Position numbers and translations under genes: made by a program. The notes below the pieces were generated by a model. It was not told the origin of the DNA, ran no database searches, and was given only the letters and a program-made list of their open reading frames with translations. From Candidatus Roseilinea sp. (GTDB lineage Bacteria > Chloroflexota > Anaerolineae > J036 > Brachytrichaceae), in the NCBI GenBank assembly GCA_025055235.1, contig JANWYN010000119.1:1-40838 (forward strand): 40,838 nt of DNA, read 5' to 3'. Below are positions 7,571 through 38,520 of the stretch, one piece after another. Numbering within the stretch: position 1 is the stretch's first letter; each line of letters opens with the position of its first letter.

Positions 7571-8467
7571 ATGAGACACACCTTAAGCGGGGATATACAC
7601 GCTGTGAATGATGGCTGCCGCGTCGTCCGCCTGAATCACGGTGAGCTGGCTTATCGTCAAGCCGGCTCGCCGCCCCTTCCGCCGCTGTTGTTGATCCATG
7701 GGTGGGGCGGTGCATCGCGCTATTGGCTGCCTGCGATGCGCGCGTTAGCAGAGGTGTTCTGCTGCTATGCGCCCGATCTGCCCGGCTTTGGATTTTCGGC
7801 GCCGCTGGACGCGCGAGCGGATGCCCCTAACGGCGCTGCGCCGGATGCTCACTCCCATCGCGGGCTGGCATCCGTCGTCTTGGAGTTCCTAGACGTAATG
7901 AACGTCACGCAGTGCGACGTCATCGGGCACAGCTATGGCTCCGGCGTGGCAATTGCACTGGCCGCGATGCAGCCGGCGCGCGTGCGCCGGCTGATCATCA
8001 GCAACTTCAGCACATTCCGCGACGAACGCGAGCGCCGCATGATCGCCTTCATGCATGGCGTGACCAGCCTGATGGTCAAAGCGCGCAAGCTCCCGTTCGC
8101 GGGAAGCGACGCTTTCGCGAAGCTGCTGGGCAGCCGCTACTTCCATCGCTTGCCCGGCGATGTGACGGTGCTGCGCGCCGGCCTGGATGACTTCATGCAG
8201 ATGGATGAGCGGACGGCTGACTTGACGGTGAAAGCGTCGCTCGGCTGGGAGACGCCGCGCGACCTGGCGCAGCTGCCGATGCCGGTCTTGCTGATCCACT
8301 GCCGCGACGATCAGATCATGCCGCCGCGCAACGCCGAATACACCGCCGGCCTCGCCCCGCGTGGCAGACTGGTCTGGATTGACGCATGCGGCCACTTGCC
8401 GATGGTCGAGAAGACCGAGGAGTTCGTGCGCATCGTCAAACAGTTTCTTCTCGATGACAACCATTGA
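7571..8467 (+). CDS. Alpha/beta hydrolase
   Basis: A 298-residue cytoplasmic hydrolase of the alpha/beta fold. The oxyanion-hole motif HGWGG is at 43-47, the nucleophile elbow GHSYGSG has S121, the acid is D246 or D247 in HCRDDQIMPP, and the catalytic histidine is H275 in GCGHLP. The ATG at 7571 is chosen; an in-frame ATG at 7541 is possible but overlaps a TATAAT box. A cap region between residues 140 and 235 is helical, as in haloperoxidase-like or esterase members. The stop overlaps the start of the UxaA-type gene by 14 bases, which points to coupled translation. The substrate is unknown; a lactone or ester in sugar-acid metabolism would fit the neighbours but is only inference. Confidence 0.85.
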   Translation: MRHTLSGDIHAVNDGCRVVRLNHGELAYRQAGSPPLPPLLLIHGWGGASRYWLPAMRALAEVFCCYAPDLPGFGFSAPLDARADAPNGAAPDAHSHRGLASVVLEFLDVMNVTQCDVIGHSYGSGVAIALAAMQPARVRRLIISNFSTFRDERERRMIAFMHGVTSLMVKARKLPFAGSDAFAKLLGSRYFHRLPGDVTVLRAGLDDFMQMDERTADLTVKASLGWETPRDLAQLPMPVLLIHCRDDQIMPPRNAEYTAGLAPRGRLVWIDACGHLPMVEKTEEFVRIVKQFLLDDNH

Positions 8468-10118
8468 CTTGCTCCCCTTGGCCGAACCGGCCGTCGTTTC
8501 TTTCGACGACGTCGCGATTCAGTTGCACCCCGATGACGATGTGGCCATCGCGAAGGTCAACTTGGCCGCAGGCACGATACTGCAAATCTCCAGGGGCTCC
8601 GAGCCTCTGCGAGTTTCGGCTCTGATCCCCTCAGGCCACAAGTTCGCTATCCGCGAGGTGAAGCAGGGCCGCCCGGTGCGACGCTACGGCCAGGTGATCG
8701 GCTTCGCGACGCGTGACATCGCGGTTGGTGACCACGTGCACGTGCACAACCTGGCAGTGGTTGTAGAGAAGCGCGACCGCACGTCCCTGCAAACGCGGTT
8801 CGACCAGGACTACGCCTTTGGTGCCGATGTCAGGCCGGTAGTGTTCGTGCCGGAGGATCAACGCCGACAGTTCATGGGCTACCGCCGCGCCGATGGCCGC
8901 GTCGGCACGCGCAACTACATCGCGGTAATCGCCACGGTGAACTGCTCGGCGCATACAGTGCGCCGCATCGCCCACCACTTCACGGCAGAGCTACTGGCCA
9001 ATTTCCCGAATGTAGACGGCGTTATCGCCATCGCTCACGGCTTCGGCTGCGCTACGCGCGTCGGCGGCGAGGACTACGTCTTGCTGCAGCGCACGCTGGC
9101 CGGCATCGCCGCGCATCCTAACGTCGGCGGCTACGTGCTCGTCGGCCTGGGCTGCGAGGTCAATCAGATCAGCGCCCTGGTGGAGAACTACCACCTCGCT
9201 GCCAAAGAAGCACCTCGACTCATCAATCATCAATCACCAATCTCCAACCTCCAATCTCCGTTACCCCCTCCTTCGCTCACCATCCAAGACACCGGCGGCG
9301 TGCGCAAAACCATCGAGGCCGGCATCGCTGTGGTGAAAGAGTTGCTGCCGGTCGTGAACCAATACAAGCGCGAGCCGACGCCGATTAGCGAGCTGACGGT
9401 GGCGCTGCAGTGCGGCGGCAGTGATGGCTGGAGCGGCGTGACGGCCAACCCGGTGCTGGGCATGGTCTCGGACGAGATCGTCCGGCAGGGCGGCAGGGTG
9501 GTGCTGGCCGAGACGCCGGAGATCTACGGCGCCGAACACTTGCTCACGCGCCGCGCCATCAGCCGCGAGGTGGGCGAGAAGCTCATCCGCAAGATTCACT
9601 GGTGGGAGCAGCACGCGGCCAAACACGGCGTCGAGATAGACAACAATCCGTCGCATGGCAACAAGGCCGGCGGCCTGACCACGATCTACGAGAAGTCGCT
9701 CGGCGCAGTGGCCAAAGCCGGCACGACGCCGCTGGTGGATGTGGTGGACTACGCCGAGCCGATTACGCAGAGAGGCTTCACGTTCATGGACACACCGGGG
9801 TACGATCCGGTCGGCGCAACGGGGCAGGTGGCCGGCGGCTGCAACCTGATCGTGTTCACCACCGGCCGCGGTTCGTGCTTCGGCTTCAAGCCGGCGCCAA
9901 GTATCAAGGTAGTAAGCAACAGCGCCACGTATCGGCGCATGGAAGAAGACATGGACATCAACGCCGGCAAGGTGCTAGAAGGCGTGCCGATGCAAACGGT
10001 GGCCGACGAGTTGTTGGACTACATGATCGAAGTGGCCTCCGGCAAGCCGTCTAAGAGCGAAGCGCAGGGCATCGGCGAAGAAGAGTTCCAGCCGTGGAAC
10101 TTGGGTGGAATCCTTTGA
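8454..10118 (+). CDS. UxaA-family altronate/galactarate dehydratase
   Basis: A 554-residue sugar-acid dehydratase. The N-terminal SAF-like domain covers about residues 15-105. The catalytic part follows, with GYRRADGRVGTRNY, HGFGC, GLGCEVNQ, the family signature CGGSDGWSGVTANP at 320-333, and GNKAGGLTTIYEKSLG. The family removes water from altronate or galactarate to give 2-keto-3-deoxy acids, using iron. The ATG at 8454 gives a normal N-terminus and overlaps the preceding hydrolase. Residues 256-277 are unusual: they are encoded by tandem heptamers and fall between the GLGCEVNQ region and the signature. The downstream aldehyde dehydrogenase supports a sugar-acid degradation role. Altronate versus galactarate cannot be decided by eye. 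Confidence 0.85.
   Translation: MTTIDLLPLAEPAVVSFDDVAIQLHPDDDVAIAKVNLAAGTILQISRGSEPLRVSALIPSGHKFAIREVKQGRPVRRYGQVIGFATRDIAVGDHVHVHNLAVVVEKRDRTSLQTRFDQDYAFGADVRPVVFVPEDQRRQFMGYRRADGRVGTRNYIAVIATVNCSAHTVRRIAHHFTAELLANFPNVDGVIAIAHGFGCATRVGGEDYVLLQRTLAGIAAHPNVGGYVLVGLGCEVNQISALVENYHLAAKEAPRLINHQSPISNLQSPLPPPSLTIQDTGGVRKTIEAGIAVVKELLPVVNQYKREPTPISELTVALQCGGSDGWSGVTANPVLGMVSDEIVRQGGRVVLAETPEIYGAEHLLTRRAISREVGEKLIRKIHWWEQHAAKHGVEIDNNPSHGNKAGGLTTIYEKSLGAVAKAGTTPLVDVVDYAEPITQRGFTFMDTPGYDPVGATGQVAGGCNLIVFTTGRGSCFGFKPAPSIKVVSNSATYRRMEEDMDINAGKVLEGVPMQTVADELLDYMIEVASGKPSKSEAQGIGEEEFQPWNLGGIL
9221..9260 (+). repeat. Heptamer repeat inside the uxaA-like gene
   Basis: Five consecutive 7-base units of the type CAATCAT, CAATCAC, CAATCTC, CAACCTC and CAATCTC lie within the coding frame and encode a low-complexity INHQSPISNLQSP-like insert. 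The unit is the same as in the intergenic palindromes near 24550 and 37650. Confidence 0.75.
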
Positions 10119-10130
10119 GATAGGCCATGG

Positions 10131-10226
10131 TCATCTTTCATCTTTCATCTTTCATCTTTCATGTCTCATTTCGCGGTGCGCTGGCTCAATCAAAAAATGA
10201 AAGATGAAAGATGTGAAATGAAAGAT
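10131..10226. repeat. Intergenic inverted repeat of 7-base units
   Basis: The left arm has about five copies of TCTTTCA (10131-10170). The right arm (10195-10225) has the complementary GAAAGAT units. The arms could pair over at least 16 bases and leave a loop of about 25. The element begins 12 bases after the stop of the uxaA-like gene and ends 9 bases before the next start, so it fills the whole gap. Confidence 0.8.
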
Positions 10227-10234
10227 CCTTAGCG

Positions 10235-10588
10235 GTGGAATTCGAAGCCGAGGCGCGCGAGGAGCGCGCATACTACGACAGCCTGAGTATTGCCGATTTG
10301 CACGCGCTGATTCACGAGCGCCGGTTCGGTCGCACCGGCATGTTCTGGCAGTCGCTGCGCGAGCGCGCCACGTTGCTCACGTCGGGCTGGACGCTGCTGG
10401 AGTTGCTGGAACGGCGCAGCGTGAGCCGTGAAGCGCGGGTGCAGGCAGCAAGCGTGTTGCTGCACCTGGCCGACTGCCACGATTGGCCGGCGGAGGCGCT
10501 GGCCGACGACGCCGATCCGGAGTTCGAGTCGCGCCTGCGCGAGCTGCGCCGCGTGATCAACGCGCGCTTGCGGGCGATGACAGCCTAA
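10235..10588 (+). CDS. Hypothetical protein
   Basis: A 117-residue protein starting at GTG 10235. It is rich in Arg, Glu and Leu, largely helical, and has no membrane segment, signal peptide or Cys pair pattern. I do not recognise the family. It sits between a heptamer palindrome and the aldehyde dehydrogenase gene, 27 bases from the latter. The leucine-rich middle (SGWTLLELLERRSVSREAR) and acidic C-terminal part suggest a small all-alpha protein. The frame is clean and its codon use matches the neighbours, so it is probably real, but its function cannot be assigned. Confidence 0.5.
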   Translation: MEFEAEAREERAYYDSLSIADLHALIHERRFGRTGMFWQSLRERATLLTSGWTLLELLERRSVSREARVQAASVLLHLADCHDWPAEALADDADPEFESRLRELRRVINARLRAMTA

Positions 10589-10606
10589 CAACGGTGACGC
10601 TAAAAT
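10577..10606 (+). promoter_or_regulatory. Probable promoter of the aldehyde dehydrogenase gene
   Basis: A -35-like ATGACA at 10577-10582 and a -10 TAAAAT at 10601-10606 are separated by 18 bases. The -10 box ends only 9 bases before the ATG at 10616, so the transcript would start almost at the start codon. Confidence 0.4.
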
Positions 10607-12137: not shown

Positions 12138-13838
12138 ATGGCGCGAGAGCGTTGGCTGACGTTGGTATCGCCGCTGGTGCTGCTGGCGCTGTGGGAGGCG
12201 CTGGCGCGCGCCAGCGTGCTCGATCCGCGTTTCTTCTCGATGCCGAGCGAGATCTTCGCCCGGCTGATCGTGTTGCTTCAAGATGGCACGCTGCTTGCCA
12301 ACACGGCGATCACCTTGCGCCGCGTAGCGGTGGGCTTCGTGCTGGCGACCGTGCCGGCCATTCTGCTCGGCGTGGCGATGGGCGTGAGCGGCGTAGCCCG
12401 CGCCCTCTTCACGCCGCTGGTCGCCGCGATCTACCCCGTCCCTAAGATCGCCCTTGTGCCGATGGTGGTGTTGCTGCTGGGGATCGGCGAGCCGGCCAAA
12501 TATGCCATCGTGGTGATCTCGGTGTTCTTCCTGGTGGCGCTCAATACGGTAGCCGGCGTGCGCAATGTGGATCCGCGTTACTTCGACATCGCCCGCAACA
12601 ACGGCGCGAGCAAGTGGGACTTGATCTGGACGGTGGCGCTGCCCGGCGCGCTGCCGAGCATCCTCACCGGCGTCAGCCTCGGCTTGGGCTTCGCGCTCAC
12701 CGTCATCGTCGGCACCGAGCTGCTGTTGCCACAAGGCGGCCTCGGCGCGATGATCTGGGCAGCCTACCAGGTGTATGACATCCCGACTATCTTCGCTGCA
12801 CTCATCGTGGTGGCGCTGCTCGGCTTTGCGGCGAACTGGCTGATGGGTGAGGTCGAGCGGCAGCTCGTGCCGTGGCAGGCCAACGTTCGATCGCTCGATC
12901 GTTCGAACGTTCGAACGAAAGCGGAGCCGCGCATTCGTCGCTTCGTGCGAGTGTGGTGGATGGCGACACGGCCGTTCAGCTTCACCGCCAGCGTCGTGCC
13001 GGTGACGCTCGGCGCGGTGCTGGCGGCCTACGACGGCTACTTCGACCTGTGGCTGTTCGCGCTCACGCTGATCGGCTCAGTGCTCATCCACGCCGGCACG
13101 AACCTGGCCAACGACTACTACGACTGGAAGAAAGGCGCGGACACGCCGGAGTCGCTCGGCCCGAACCGCGCGCTACAGGAAGGCATGCTCACGCCACAGC
13201 AGGTGTTCATCGGCGCGCTGGTTTGCTTCGGCGTCGGCTCGCTCATCGGCTTGTATCTGGTCGCGGCGCGCGGCGTGTTCATCCTGATGCTGGGCATCCT
13301 CAGCGTGCTCGCCGGCTGGTTCTACACCGCCGGCCCGAAAGCCTTCGCCTACATCGGCTTGGGCGAGATCGTGGTGTTCATCTTCATGGGGCCGGTCATG
13401 GTCATCGGCAGCTACTACGTTCAGGTGCAAGCCGCGCCGCTGCACGTGGTGCTGTTGTCGTTGCCGATCGGCTTCCTCGTCGCCGCGATCCTGCACGCTA
13501 ACAACATGCGCGACTTGGAGGGCGACCTGGCTAAGAACAAGCGCACCCTGGCGAACATCCTGGGCCGGCAGGCCAGCAAATGGGAATACCTTGTGCTGGT
13601 GGTCGGGAGCTTCGTCGTTTTGATCGCGCTGGTGCTGATCGGCTATGCGCCGCTGTTGGCGCTGTTGCCATTGCTTGTATTGCCGACGGGCATCTCCCTG
13701 GTGCAGCGCGCGTTCGCCACCGACGAGCCGCGCAAGCTCAATCGCGTGCTGCGCGCCACGGCCAGCTTGCACGGCTGGTTCGGCTGGTTGATGATCCTCG
13801 GCTTCGTCGGCGCGATCGTGGGCCGGCTTGTATACTAG
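12138..13838 (+). CDS. Fusion of ABC transporter permease and MenA-like UbiA prenyltransferase
   Basis: One uninterrupted 566-codon frame with two complete membrane modules. Residues 1-245 are a SsuC/TauC-type permease, with about six helices and the EAA loop NNGASKWDLIWTVALPGALP (154-173) that contacts an ATPase. Residues 270-566 are a UbiA-superfamily prenyltransferase: Asp-rich motif NDYYDWKKGAD at 325-335, GPNRALQEGML at 341-351, and second motif NNMRDLEGDLAKNKRT at 455-470. This pattern resembles 1,4-dihydroxy-2-naphthoate prenyltransferase (MenA), a menaquinone enzyme of the membrane. The joint (248-259) is encoded by an 8-base tandem repeat. No ATPase or binding-protein gene is adjacent. 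A genuine bifunctional protein, a recent read-through fusion, or processing into two parts are all possible. Confidence 0.85.
   Translation: MARERWLTLVSPLVLLALWEALARASVLDPRFFSMPSEIFARLIVLLQDGTLLANTAITLRRVAVGFVLATVPAILLGVAMGVSGVARALFTPLVAAIYPVPKIALVPMVVLLLGIGEPAKYAIVVISVFFLVALNTVAGVRNVDPRYFDIARNNGASKWDLIWTVALPGALPSILTGVSLGLGFALTVIVGTELLLPQGGLGAMIWAAYQVYDIPTIFAALIVVALLGFAANWLMGEVERQLVPWQANVRSLDRSNVRTKAEPRIRRFVRVWWMATRPFSFTASVVPVTLGAVLAAYDGYFDLWLFALTLIGSVLIHAGTNLANDYYDWKKGADTPESLGPNRALQEGMLTPQQVFIGALVCFGVGSLIGLYLVAARGVFILMLGILSVLAGWFYTAGPKAFAYIGLGEIVVFIFMGPVMVIGSYYVQVQAAPLHVVLLSLPIGFLVAAILHANNMRDLEGDLAKNKRTLANILGRQASKWEYLVLVVGSFVVLIALVLIGYAPLLALLPLLVLPTGISLVQRAFATDEPRKLNRVLRATASLHGWFGWLMILGFVGAIVGRLVY
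12882..12919. repeat. 8-base palindromic tandem repeat at the fusion joint
   Basis: Units CGTTCGAT, CGCTCGAT, CGTTCGAA and CGTTCGAA follow one another, and the sequence is strongly self-complementary (TTCGAACG/CGTTCGAA). It lies exactly between the permease and prenyltransferase modules and is translated as NVRSLDRSNVRT. Confidence 0.8.
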
Positions 13839-18440: not shown

Positions 18441-19508
18441 TCAGTTTTGGGTCGCTGCTTGGTAGGCCCTTTCCCAGCCCTCGTCGGTGCCGTCGCGCAT
18501 CAAGGCGACATGCAACGTTTCTGCCAGCGACCTTGCTTGGGAGTTGATGCGCGCGCCTGCGGCTACAGGTACGGCGCGCAGCCCGGCGCGCCGTAGCAAT
18601 GCAGCGCGCCGCTCTGCGCGACTCACGTCGTTCGCATCCACCACCGACGATACCTCGACCGCCAGCCACACCTCCTCGGCTCCGGGCGCCAAGCGTGGCC
18701 GGCCGCGCACCAGAATGTCGGTTAACGACAGCTCGACGATCTCGTCCTCGGTAAGTTTGCCCTCGAGTTGTTCTTCCGCCTCGATGAAAGGAATCACTCG
18801 GGCGCGGCGTAGCCAGCGGCCGAAGTAAGCATGCGCTTTGTCGCGGAATTTGATCTCGAGTGTGTCGCCGCGCACCTCGGCCATTTGGTTGACCAAGCGA
18901 CGCACGGTTTCTTCGGTGCGTCGCTGGGCTTCGGCCAGCTCTTCGAGGCGTTGCTCGGTGCGGCGTTGGGCTTCGGCGAGTGCCTCGAGGCGCTGCTCAG
19001 TGATGCGCTGGGCTTCAGCCAGTGCCTCGAGGCGTTGATCAGTGCGGCGTTGAGCCTCAGCCAGCTCTTCGAGGCGTTGCTCGGTGCGGCGTTGGGCTTC
19101 GGCCAGCTCTTCGAGACGTTGCTCGGTGCGGCGTTGGGCTTCGGCGAGTGCCTCGAGGCGCTGCTCCATGATGCGCTGGGCTTCAGCCAGTGCCTCGAGG
19201 CGTTGCTCGGTGCGGCGCTGGGCCTCAGCTAGCTCTTCGAGGCGTTGATCAGTACGGCGCTGAGCTTCAGCCAGTTCTTGTAACGCTCTGGCGAGTTCCT
19301 CAAGTCGTTGATCAGTGCGACGCTGGGCTTCGGCCAGCTCTTCGAGTCGCTGCTCAGTGCGACGCTGGGCCTCGGCGAGGCTGCGCACAATGTCCGGCAG
19401 CGCGAGCAGCTCCTCGGTCAGCACGAGGCGGCGTATCTCGCTGAGCCACTCTGGCCGCGTGGCCAGCAGGCGCGTCAAATCCTGTAGGTCGTTGATGGTA
19501 AAAGCCAT
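18441..19508 (-). CDS. Coiled-coil repeat protein with C-terminal PD-(D/E)XK nuclease-like domain
   Basis: A 355-residue protein in three parts. Residues 1-45 are a short helical head. Residues about 45-205 are roughly eleven 14-residue repeats of the type LEELAEAQRRTEQR with Ala/Glu, Thr/Ile and Glu/Asp variants, plus one half-unit insertion (LEELARALQ). This predicts a long coiled coil. The C-terminal 150 residues (GDTLEIKFRDKAHAYFG, then EVWLAVEVSSVVDANDVSRA and LLRRAGLRAVPVAAG) resemble a restriction-endonuclease-like fold found in many cyanobacterial and Chloroflexota proteins of unknown role. A plausible core is Glu in LEIKFR, and Asp plus Glu-x-Ser in the EVWLAVEVS strand. The TATAAT at 19525-19520 ends 11 bases before the ATG. 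Function unknown. Confidence 0.75.
   Translation of the reverse strand: MAFTINDLQDLTRLLATRPEWLSEIRRLVLTEELLALPDIVRSLAEAQRRTEQRLEELAEAQRRTDQRLEELARALQELAEAQRRTDQRLEELAEAQRRTEQRLEALAEAQRIMEQRLEALAEAQRRTEQRLEELAEAQRRTEQRLEELAEAQRRTDQRLEALAEAQRITEQRLEALAEAQRRTEQRLEELAEAQRRTEETVRRLVNQMAEVRGDTLEIKFRDKAHAYFGRWLRRARVIPFIEAEEQLEGKLTEDEIVELSLTDILVRGRPRLAPGAEEVWLAVEVSSVVDANDVSRAERRAALLRRAGLRAVPVAAGARINSQARSLAETLHVALMRDGTDEGWERAYQAATQN
18925..19390 (-). repeat. 42-base coding tandem repeats
   Basis: About eleven copies of a 42-base unit encode the 14-residue coiled-coil repeat. Units 4-6 and 8-10 of the protein share the same order of variants, which suggests block duplication. One extra 21-base half unit lies near 19290. 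Confidence 0.8.
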
Positions 19509-24520: not shown

Positions 24521-24583
24521 CAATCATGAATCATTAATCATCAATCATCAATCATTATTCATGATTCATGATTGATGATTGAT
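24521..24583. repeat. Palindrome of CAATCAT/ATGATTG heptamers
   Basis: Tandem heptamers form an inverted repeat with perfect 16-base arms (24540-24555 and 24568-24583) around a 12-base loop. It fills the gap before lysK, and its right arm runs into the end of the lipase gene, encoding the last residues and the stop. Confidence 0.85.
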
Positions 24584-33839: not shown

Positions 33840-33879
33840 CGCGTCATAAAGCGCGTAACGAGGAGACAGGCAGCATTAT

Positions 33880-33949
33880 CCCCATGTCCCCTTGTCCCTT
33901 GTCTCCCTGTCTCCCTGTCCCCATTGTCCCTCGTCCCCTCACTCCCCCC
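33880..33949. repeat. Degenerate GTCCCTT/CTCCCTG repeat between lysW and lysX
   Basis: A pyrimidine-rich run of 7-8-base units (CCCTTGT, CTCCCTG, TCCCTCG and similar) fills most of the lysW-lysX gap. It reaches the last codons of lysW, whose stop is at 33939-33941. Confidence 0.6.
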
Positions 33950-37100: not shown

Positions 37101-37564
37101 GGTTGGTCGGCGGGATGGCCGATGCGGAACATCCACTGGTTGCCGCGCACGGTGCGCACGCTGCGGCGCACCTGGTCGGCCAGAGTTTGAAAGCCAAGCC
37201 GGTGATACGCCTCCGCCAGCGCGCTGGAGAGCGCGTCGCTCGGCCCATGCGCTTGCCACGCACGCTGAAACACGCCGATGGCCTCCTCGAACCGGCGATT
37301 GAGGAGATGTTCGTAGCCGGAGAATGGGATCAGGCCGCGCTTCGGCATCTCCGGCTTGGCCGGCAAATGGAAGCGATGGATGGCGTAGAGGAAGAACAGC
37401 GCGCGCACGCGCTCGTAGAGGTTGTCGCTGCGCTTGCGGAACGCATCGAGCGCCGCGCATTCTTCGAGCAGCTCGCTCATGCTGGCCTGCCGCGCCAATG
37501 CATCCAGCGAGCGATCGCGCACGCTTGGATCGGTGGTGGTGATGATCTCGATAAGCCTCGCCAT
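34166..37564 (-). CDS. Fucokinase-like GHMP kinase fused to UDPGP-type pyrophosphorylase
   Basis: A 1132-residue protein. Residues 1-175 are helical and TPR-like. Residues about 185-600 are a GHMP kinase of the L-fucokinase type: [17 protein letters not shown] (190-206), [14 protein letters not shown] (324-337), [17 protein letters not shown] (379-395) and [12 protein letters not shown] (541-552). Residues about 745-1132 are a nucleotidyltransferase of the UDP-glucose pyrophosphorylase superfamily, starting [13 protein letters not shown] (761-773) and including [13 protein letters not shown] and [14 protein letters not shown]. Known kinase/pyrophosphorylase fusions (bacterial FKP, plant FKGP) have the opposite order. 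It probably phosphorylates a sugar and then activates it to a nucleotide sugar in the cytosol. The GalU-like gene is upstream on the same strand. Sugar identity is unknown. Confidence 0.8.
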
Positions 37565-37679
37565 CTTTCATTTGTCATCTTTCATCTGTCATTTCGCTCG
37601 ACAGCAGCGAATGACGGATGAAGGGCAAATCATCAATCATCAATCATTAATCATGATTAATGATTGATGATTGATGATT
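37565..37679. repeat. Two nested heptamer inverted repeats, one a perfect 52-base palindrome
   Basis: The first part (about 37565-37627) is an imperfect hairpin of TCTTTCAT- and GTCATC-like units closing around CGACAG. The second (37628-37679) is a perfect 52-base palindrome of CAATCAT units centred on CATG at 37652-37655. It overlaps the stop codon of the GalU-like gene and fills the gap to the fusion gene. Confidence 0.9.
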
Positions 37680-38520
37680 AGTTTCGCATCACAAGCAACT
37701 CGACCAGTTGCGCCAGCACCTCGGCGCGGTCTTTGCCGGCGAGTGCGAGCGCAAGCTGCGCATTGAGCAGGCCGTAGCGCACGCCAATGTCGTAACGCCG
37801 GCCCAGCACTTCGTAAGCCAGATAGCGTTCGCGGTGTGCCAAGACGGCCAGCGCATCTGAGAGCGTGATCATGTTTGCGCCGGTCGCGGCCTGCTCCGTC
37901 AGCAGCTCCATCACCGTGGGCGTGAGGGCGTGGATGCCGAAGAAGCACAGGTAGTAGCCGGCGCGCAGGCCGGGCACGAGCAGCGTTTGTTCCGCTTCGG
38001 TCGGTGTCGGCTTTTCGAGCACGCGATCCACCTGATACAGCCGAGGCTGATTGGGCAGCCGCTTGCCGCCCACTGCGCCGTAGTTCGGCAGCAGCGATTC
38101 GCGTGTGGGCTGCACGGCCGATACGCTGCAGGCGTGAGCTTCGGCCACGCGCACCACTTGTTGGGCGCAGGTGCTCCCATCGCTATCCTCGCTCAGGTGC
38201 AGGTGGTCGCCGACCAGGTGGAGGAAGGGTTGATTGCCGGTGAACTCGCGCGCGCACAGCACGGCGTGGCCGTAGCCGCGCGGCTCATGCTGCTCGACGA
38301 ACGACAGCCGGCGCGCGTGCTCGCCGGCGGCAGCAGCATACGCTTCTGCATCGCCAGGGTGCACGACGACGCAAATGTCGTGGATGCCGGCGGTGAGCAC
38401 TTCCTCGACAATGATCTGCAAGGCGGACTTCTGAGCGCCGTCGCGGTCTATCAGCGTCTGTAGCGGGAGGCCGCGTTGGTTTCTGCCGGCGGCGGTGATG
38501 ACAGCTTTCGTGATCTTCAT
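37678..38520 (-). CDS. GalU-like nucleotidyltransferase
   Basis: A 280-residue sugar-phosphate nucleotidyltransferase, related to UTP-glucose-1-phosphate uridylyltransferase. The Rossmann-like start [16 protein letters not shown], the [14 protein letters not shown] segment (typical GHA motif), [10 protein letters not shown] and the [11 protein letters not shown] segment match the family. The signature is unusual: [25 protein letters not shown] has no GxGTR and no clear PK motif, so this is a divergent branch. The length is near that of GalU. It lies upstream of the kinase/pyrophosphorylase fusion with a palindromic repeat between, and both probably supply nucleotide sugars for glycans. Activity and substrate cannot be taken from sequence. 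Confidence 0.75.

Follow-up and report, generated by a model that had tools for sequence, protein, structure and literature searches.

The window, by which we mean the whole stretch of 40,838 nucleotides analysed, comprises positions 1 to 40,838 of contig JANWYN010000119.1 (assembly GCA_025055235.1), from a Candidatus Roseilinea sp. whose genome is represented by 4.0 Mb in 151 contigs. An open reading frame of 566 codons occupies positions 12138-13838 of its forward (+) strand, beginning with ATG, ending with TAG and containing zero internal stops, and the following features were assigned to it:

12138..13838, + strand: fusion gene, ABC permease plus MenA-type prenyltransferase, 566 aa (Pfam, NCBIfam and full-length homologues)
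12138..12875, + strand: permease half, NitT/TauT-type, residues 1-246 (Pfam PF00528; Foldseek match to CmpB/NrtB)
12582..12656, + strand: EAA loop region, residues 149-173 (invariant residues in aligned fusions)
12876..12932, + strand: linker, residues 247-265 (highly variable among aligned relatives; low pLDDT; nonsynonymous excess)
12882..12917, no strand assigned: palindromic array inside the linker (TRF: period 8, 4.5 copies)
12933..13838, + strand: MenA-type UbiA prenyltransferase half, residues 266-566 (PF01040, TIGR00751; Foldseek match to UBIAD1, 8djk)
13101..13142, + strand: first Asp-rich motif, N322 to D335 (residue conservation in 49 fusions)
13494..13526, + strand: second Asp-rich motif, H453 to D463 (residue conservation in 49 fusions)

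Both halves are recognized by Pfam above the gathering scores, BPD_transp_1 (PF00528) at residues 74-241 with a whole-protein E-value of 9.3e-24 (84.6 vs 26.4 bits) and UbiA (PF01040) at residues 287-538 with an E-value of 1.9e-43. The enzyme half also exceeds the cut-off of the NCBIfam menA model TIGR00751 (173.4 vs 102.15 bits), as does the fused half in all 52 fusion genomes; it reaches none of the PRK06080 subgroup equivalogs, the nearest being NF004751 (247.3 vs 264). The permease half remains below the NCBIfam equivalog cut-offs of TauC (133.3 vs 342 bits), SsuC (99 vs 347), NtrB (91.2 vs 209.05) and SaoP (137.7 vs 295). Residues F149, G156, A157, V166, A167, P169 and P173 are identical throughout 42 aligned fusions, and G156, A157 and P169, which we take to belong to the EAA loop, are kept in all 49 aligned full-length fusions. 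Of the residues presumably forming the Asp-rich motifs, N322, N325, D329 and D335 in the first and N455, N456, D459 and D463 in the second are present in 49 of 49 fusions, D326 in 46 and H453 in 48. A sequence-only reading of this DNA had described a permease and a UbiA-type prenyltransferase in one 566-codon frame, with the EAA loop and both Asp-rich motifs in place; the domain matches, the uninterrupted frame and the residue conservation bear this description out. We regard it as nearly certain that the fused gene is real and conserved.

An AlphaFold2 model of the fusion has a mean pLDDT of 88.9 and a pTM of 0.56, so that the two halves are sound whereas their mutual placement is not; pLDDT falls below 50 only at residues 254-259, inside the linker. 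Foldseek matched the permease half to CmpB/NrtB (TM by target 0.73-0.84) and the enzyme half to UBIAD1 (8djk) as the nearest solved fold, and no PDB chain spanning both halves was found among 6 sequence matches or the 50 fold matches listed of 432. The C-terminus of NitT-type permeases and the N-terminus of UbiA proteins face the cytosol; the joint would therefore be cytosolic, with the exit of the permease facing the enzyme.

The stretch between the halves differs in sequence and length across aligned relatives. In comparisons with three close relatives (G006, G002 and G005) it is the only one of the three parts of the fusion in which nonsynonymous codon changes exceed synonymous ones (10-12 vs 2-6), the corresponding figures being 11-22 and 56-64 for the permease and 5-16 and 66-84 for the UbiA half. 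The sequence-only reading held that an 8-bp palindromic array encodes the joint and is of a kind seen between genes elsewhere. The first part stands, as the array was located by TRF inside the linker, and the second does not: allowing up to one mismatch, an 18-mer of the array has one further site in the whole genome (G000:C147:7528-7553), which lies within an ORF of 1151 aa, and the intergenic arrays have other units. Within the window a 16-mer of the array, with up to two mismatches, matches only at the joint, in four overlapping matches on both strands (mean of 0.04 in shuffles). Palindromic octamers show no notable excess across 136,785 bases of the organism's own DNA, GTTCGAAC being seen 5 times against 5.0 expected and TTCGAACG 7 times against 4.0. 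Among fusion genes the array is confined to that of the window (1 of 49); it therefore did not create the fusion, and is carried as a passenger by a linker that tolerates change.

Other tandem repeats were observed in the window. A 7-bp CAATCTC array at 9231-9259 lies within the coding sequence of a 585-aa ORF (8361-10118), in a stretch that varies in three relatives, and thus, like the joint array, sits in a tolerant protein segment. Arrays of 7-8 bp at or near gene boundaries (10131-10169, 24521-24580, 33874-33939 and 37562-37680) have units different from that of the joint array, and a 42-bp tandem repeat of about 8.7 copies (18913-19279) lies within a minus-strand ORF at 18441-19508.

The fusion is widely distributed among relatives. 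In a set of 60 genomes it was found full-length in the source genome and in all eight other sampled members of the genus, at 83-95% identity, these nine not being independent, as well as in two genomes of the same family (G009 and G012) and one of a different family (G037). A sample of 400 genomes of the phylum, searched at an E-value of 1e-100, yielded nine carriers, and families f50 and f86 were added. From a GTDB scan with one genome per species, in which the best 80 of 227 relatives were kept, 48 loci encode the full-length fusion in a single ORF, and L105 is one more that is cut by a contig end. Nearly all of these 48 loci are from Chloroflexota, their record titles naming Roseilinea, Caldilineaceae, Chloroflexaceae, Roseiflexaceae, Herpetosiphonaceae, Thermomicrobiales, Anaerolineae or unclassified bacteria, with L107 an odd case. 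Titled Singulisphaera (Planctomycetota), L107 has a fusion that groups closely with those of the Roseiflexaceae loci L098 and L106 and is perhaps a mislabelled or mixed MAG; the fusion of L100, titled Thermoflexus hugenholtzii, groups with L098 and L106 as well. Most of the genomes are incomplete MAGs.

In a UbiA tree of 85 rows, a branch separates the 42 fused domains from the 43 standalone ones (SH-aLRT 90), and the same split was recovered when all 48 loci were added (98 rows, 55 fused; SH-aLRT 92). Fused rows likewise split off in a permease tree containing only 6 standalone rows (SH-aLRT 86). These supports are moderate and no proof; they suggest that the fusion may have had a single origin, and judged by these comparisons it is old, not a recent accident. 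The sequence-only reading had instead proposed a local merger of two genes by repeat insertion or stop loss, had advised looking for the same joint in related genomes, and had allowed for the genes being separate in relatives and fused in this assembly only. The relatives carry the fusion, full-length in many genomes, with the joint in frame down to 44% identity. A recent joining within the species through the arrival of the 8-bp repeat, or a mistake in assembly, would fit the position of the repeat exactly at the joint; it is scarcely credible, since the joint is conserved in all eight congeners and many further genomes, which already refutes it, and the array is present in a single fusion gene. 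A repeat-driven merger was ruled out on the same grounds together with the grouping of the fused UbiA domains.

The partners of a NitT/TauT-type importer, an ATPase and an NMT1/SsuA-type binding protein (SBP), are present. At least 3.4 kb of upstream sequence is available at 36 of the 48 fusion loci; 25 of these 36 have a same-strand ATPase within 3.5 kb upstream, mostly abutting the fusion, and 23 of the 25 an SBP too. In G037 the fusion comes after an ATPase gene and the genes of two binding proteins of NMT1 type. Neither partner lies upstream at 11 of the 36 loci, 6 of them from the genus of the window. Other recurrent neighbours were few across the 48 loci, the next commonest cluster being found at 6, all from one Roseiflexaceae-like group. 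In the window's genome the SBP (L053:8791-9849) and ATPase (9846-10592) form an overlapping pair on a separate contig, C130, with no same-strand permease adjoining. The pair is flanked on the opposite strand by an ABC permease that matches a B6 model weakly (160 vs 465 bits) and might be an alternative partner. We infer that the C130 pair serves the fusion in this genome. Within the family, the orthologous SBP was found in 11 of 11 fusion genomes, in one of which (G004) it is split into two pieces on two contigs, and in 0 of the 11 non-fusion genomes tested out of 17. Over 45 rows in all, an SBP match at 1e-30 was obtained in 26 of the 31 with a fusion and in 1 of the 14 without; two of the 31, one of them a miss, repeat genomes already counted. 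A cysteine at a lipobox-like place of the SBP is shared by at least 90% of 27 rows, and of the NCBIfam models only that of the SsuA family matches the SBP at 1e-20. The structural model of the SBP (pLDDT 91.8) has a fold like those of TauA, SsuA, THI5 and the PQQ-binding PqqT, which allows an aromatic acid ligand and does not show one.

The genes of menaquinone synthesis are unevenly represented in the carriers. MenD and MqnC were counted in 17 of the 52 fusion genomes, the other 35 being those reached through loci, and the gap in head-group synthesis described here is judged by MenD, MqnC and MenB. MenD exceeds its cut-off in one genome (G399) and MqnC in one (G405); in the remaining 15 of 17, the window's own included, both are missing over cut-off. 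MenG exceeds its cut-off in all 17, and the menAG-type pattern, in which MenA and MenG are present and MenD and MqnC absent, was found in 15. MenB scores above cut-off in 2 of 52 fusion genomes, compared with 7 of the 14 genomes tested in the window's family that have no fusion. The exceptions to the gap are G399 with MenD and MenB, G463 with MenB, G405 with MqnC, and G464, whose MenB match lies just under cut-off; a head-group route of another kind in the carriers would look like a gap too. In genus g2 the fusion and MenD/MenB are mutually exclusive: G009 carries the fusion with neither MenD nor MenB over cut-off, in G016 and G021 both enzymes are present and the fusion is absent, and G025 (78% complete) has neither the fusion nor MenD/MenB. 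MenD is present in at least 21 genomes of f50 and at least 6 of f86, where the carriers G266, G405, G198 and G430 are without it and G399 has both. A phylum-wide depletion of MenD in carriers was also considered and set aside as a weak statistic, MenD exceeding its cut-off in 147 of 400 phylum genomes and in 1 of 9 carriers (binomial about 0.1, alone not significant). MqnC-like matches under the family cut-off were seen in G026 (C90:13273-14304), G040 (C240) and G059 (C3), in pairs in some cases.

The fusion is the only menA-family match above cut-off in 20 of 52 fusion genomes, such as G266 and G198 (97-98% complete), and is therefore the best MenA candidate there; two of the 20 are doubtful, namely G465, where a MenA-like fragment of 61 aa lies at the end of a contig, and G006. 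A further menA-family match above cut-off is present in the other 32 genomes, the window's included, so that the fused half is not the sole MenA in these. In G455 and G478 this extra match is itself in a frame of more than 500 codons; each of the two genomes has two such menA-family frames (C521 and C347; C94 and C86), possibly representing second fusion copies. Standalone MenA abuts MenG in seven members of the genus and lies about 6 kb from it in the window's genome. In G006, assembled as one contig, standalone MenA was not found, nor was any MenA match in the 10 kb at each contig end. G006 was nevertheless dropped as proof that the genus can live on the fused MenA alone because the standalone MenA of its relatives lies near MenG, and in G006 the start of the contig truncates the region of MenG.

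Independent evidence from gene neighbourhoods comes from a related permease without the fused enzyme. Nine relatives with neither the fusion nor MenD over cut-off encode an unfused permease that shares 55-60% identity with the one in G053. It adjoins MenG in G014, G023 and G026 (with SBP and ATPase), in G019 (at a contig end) and in G015, G020 and G024; in G053 the permease, MenG and MenA form one cluster, and G054 has the order ATPase-permease-MenA with no MenG over cut-off. The MenA search left out the g7 genomes with the permease-MenG operon, and G026 has an MqnC match under cut-off. The loci of the unfused permease are L181:3235-7162, L182:5480-9477, L184:4235-8091, L185, L179, L180, L183, L030 and L033. 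These varied gene orders, which tie one importer class to MenA and MenG, would be hard to explain with a taurine or nitrate cargo, and the unfused permease is a second candidate importer of a menaquinone precursor.

From these observations we infer a ligand, a direction of transport, catalysis, a hand-over between the halves and a membrane topology. The fusion probably forms the membrane part of an ABC importer whose cargo is a soluble menaquinone head group, most likely 1,4-dihydroxy-2-naphthoate (DHNA), carrying the next enzyme of the pathway, MenA, at the permease C-terminus. A lipoprotein binding protein would catch the precursor and the ATPase would power its passage through the permease half; the prenyltransferase half would take it on the inner side and add the isoprenoid tail, which would trap the compound in the membrane, and MenG would then methylate the prenylated product. 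A role of the fusion in menaquinone formation is likely; DHNA as the cargo, the weakest step of the reading, has in our estimation somewhat better than even chances, the nearest named permeases and SBPs being those that handle taurine, sulfonates, nitrate or bicarbonate.

The same machine might handle another ring, such as o-succinylbenzoate, a menadione-like naphthoquinone, 4-hydroxybenzoate or homogentisate, or another quinone might be made. The SBP class is broad enough for this, and the window genome's own MenG obtains 205.9 bits on the model of the methyl-plastoquinone methyltransferase MpqE, under the cut-off of 335. We regard such a cargo as unlikely, as the enzyme half exceeds the menA cut-off, the universal presence of MenG in the 17 genomes favours a product still needing methylation, and the rarity of MenB speaks against o-succinylbenzoate in particular. 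Improbable, too, is an ordinary NitT/TauT importer of taurine, sulfonate or a nitrate-like compound to which MenA became tethered by a neutral, uncoupled fusion. SaoP, TauC, SsuC and NtrB are the closest named permease models, and SsuA is the family that the SBP matches, but all four permease models are far below cut-off, the fused forms cluster with motifs unchanged across the phylum, the related unfused permease adjoins MenG or MenA, and within the family the SBP tracks the fusion genome by genome. Export, balancing or sensing of DHNA, with MenA as acceptor, is a very unlikely role: a dedicated SBP with a conserved lipobox-like cysteine marks an importer, and most tested carriers are without known means of DHNA synthesis.

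The fusion system can be compared with known ones. With the NitT/TauT-type importers (TauABC, SsuABC, NrtABCD and CmpABCD) the fusion system shares the permease fold, the ATPase and an NMT1/SsuA-type SBP; it differs from them in the C-terminal prenyltransferase, in the genomic ties to MenA and MenG and in that its permease reaches the cut-off of none of the named models that it matches. The enzyme half resembles MenA of the UbiA superfamily in its TIGR00751 score and both unchanged Asp-rich motifs, but is fused to an ABC permease and stands apart from the 43 standalone rows in the tree. The SBP has a fold similar to that of PqqT (9b1u), which binds the quinone acid PQQ, although the two are distant (fold E-value 6.4e-14, 17% identity) and the PqqT cofactor differs. 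We know of no prenyltransferase associated with PqqT.

Carriers resemble the menAG-only organisms treated in PMC4746308 and PMC5738691, which have MenA and MenG without the upstream genes, and unlike those organisms they show a dedicated candidate importer, fused to MenA. PMC4746308 proposes that menAG-only bacteria could use external DHNA, states that import genes remain unannotated, and calls precursor exchange tempting but speculative; PMC5738691 presents DHNA as a growth factor for bacteria without quinone synthesis and describes transporters of menaquinone or DHNA as undescribed. The terms quinone, menaquinone and MenA are absent from PMC8446752, on Roseilinea, and PMC5459899 counts Ca. 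Roseilinea gracile among the phototrophs that have a type-2 reaction centre. Neither a permease-prenyltransferase fusion nor a DHNA importer was found in the open-access papers searched, in agreement with the sequence-only reading, which knew of no family with this order; prior naming elsewhere is possible. The parts are known, their arrangement is conserved and new, and the comparative case for a missing importer is good.

The fusion, the SBP and the ATPase together constitute a concrete three-gene candidate for the missing DHNA importer, and the question becomes testable. A more tentative proposal, to which we give somewhat less than even chances, is vectorial prenylation, in which the importer would feed DHNA straight into the fused MenA site, transport and anchoring would be coupled, and Chloroflexota would live on the DHNA of their neighbours by means of the fusion and the related unfused importer. 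If the import reading is true, photoheterotrophs such as Ca. Roseilinea could obtain their quinone without MenD or MqnC, and would be dependent on their neighbours.
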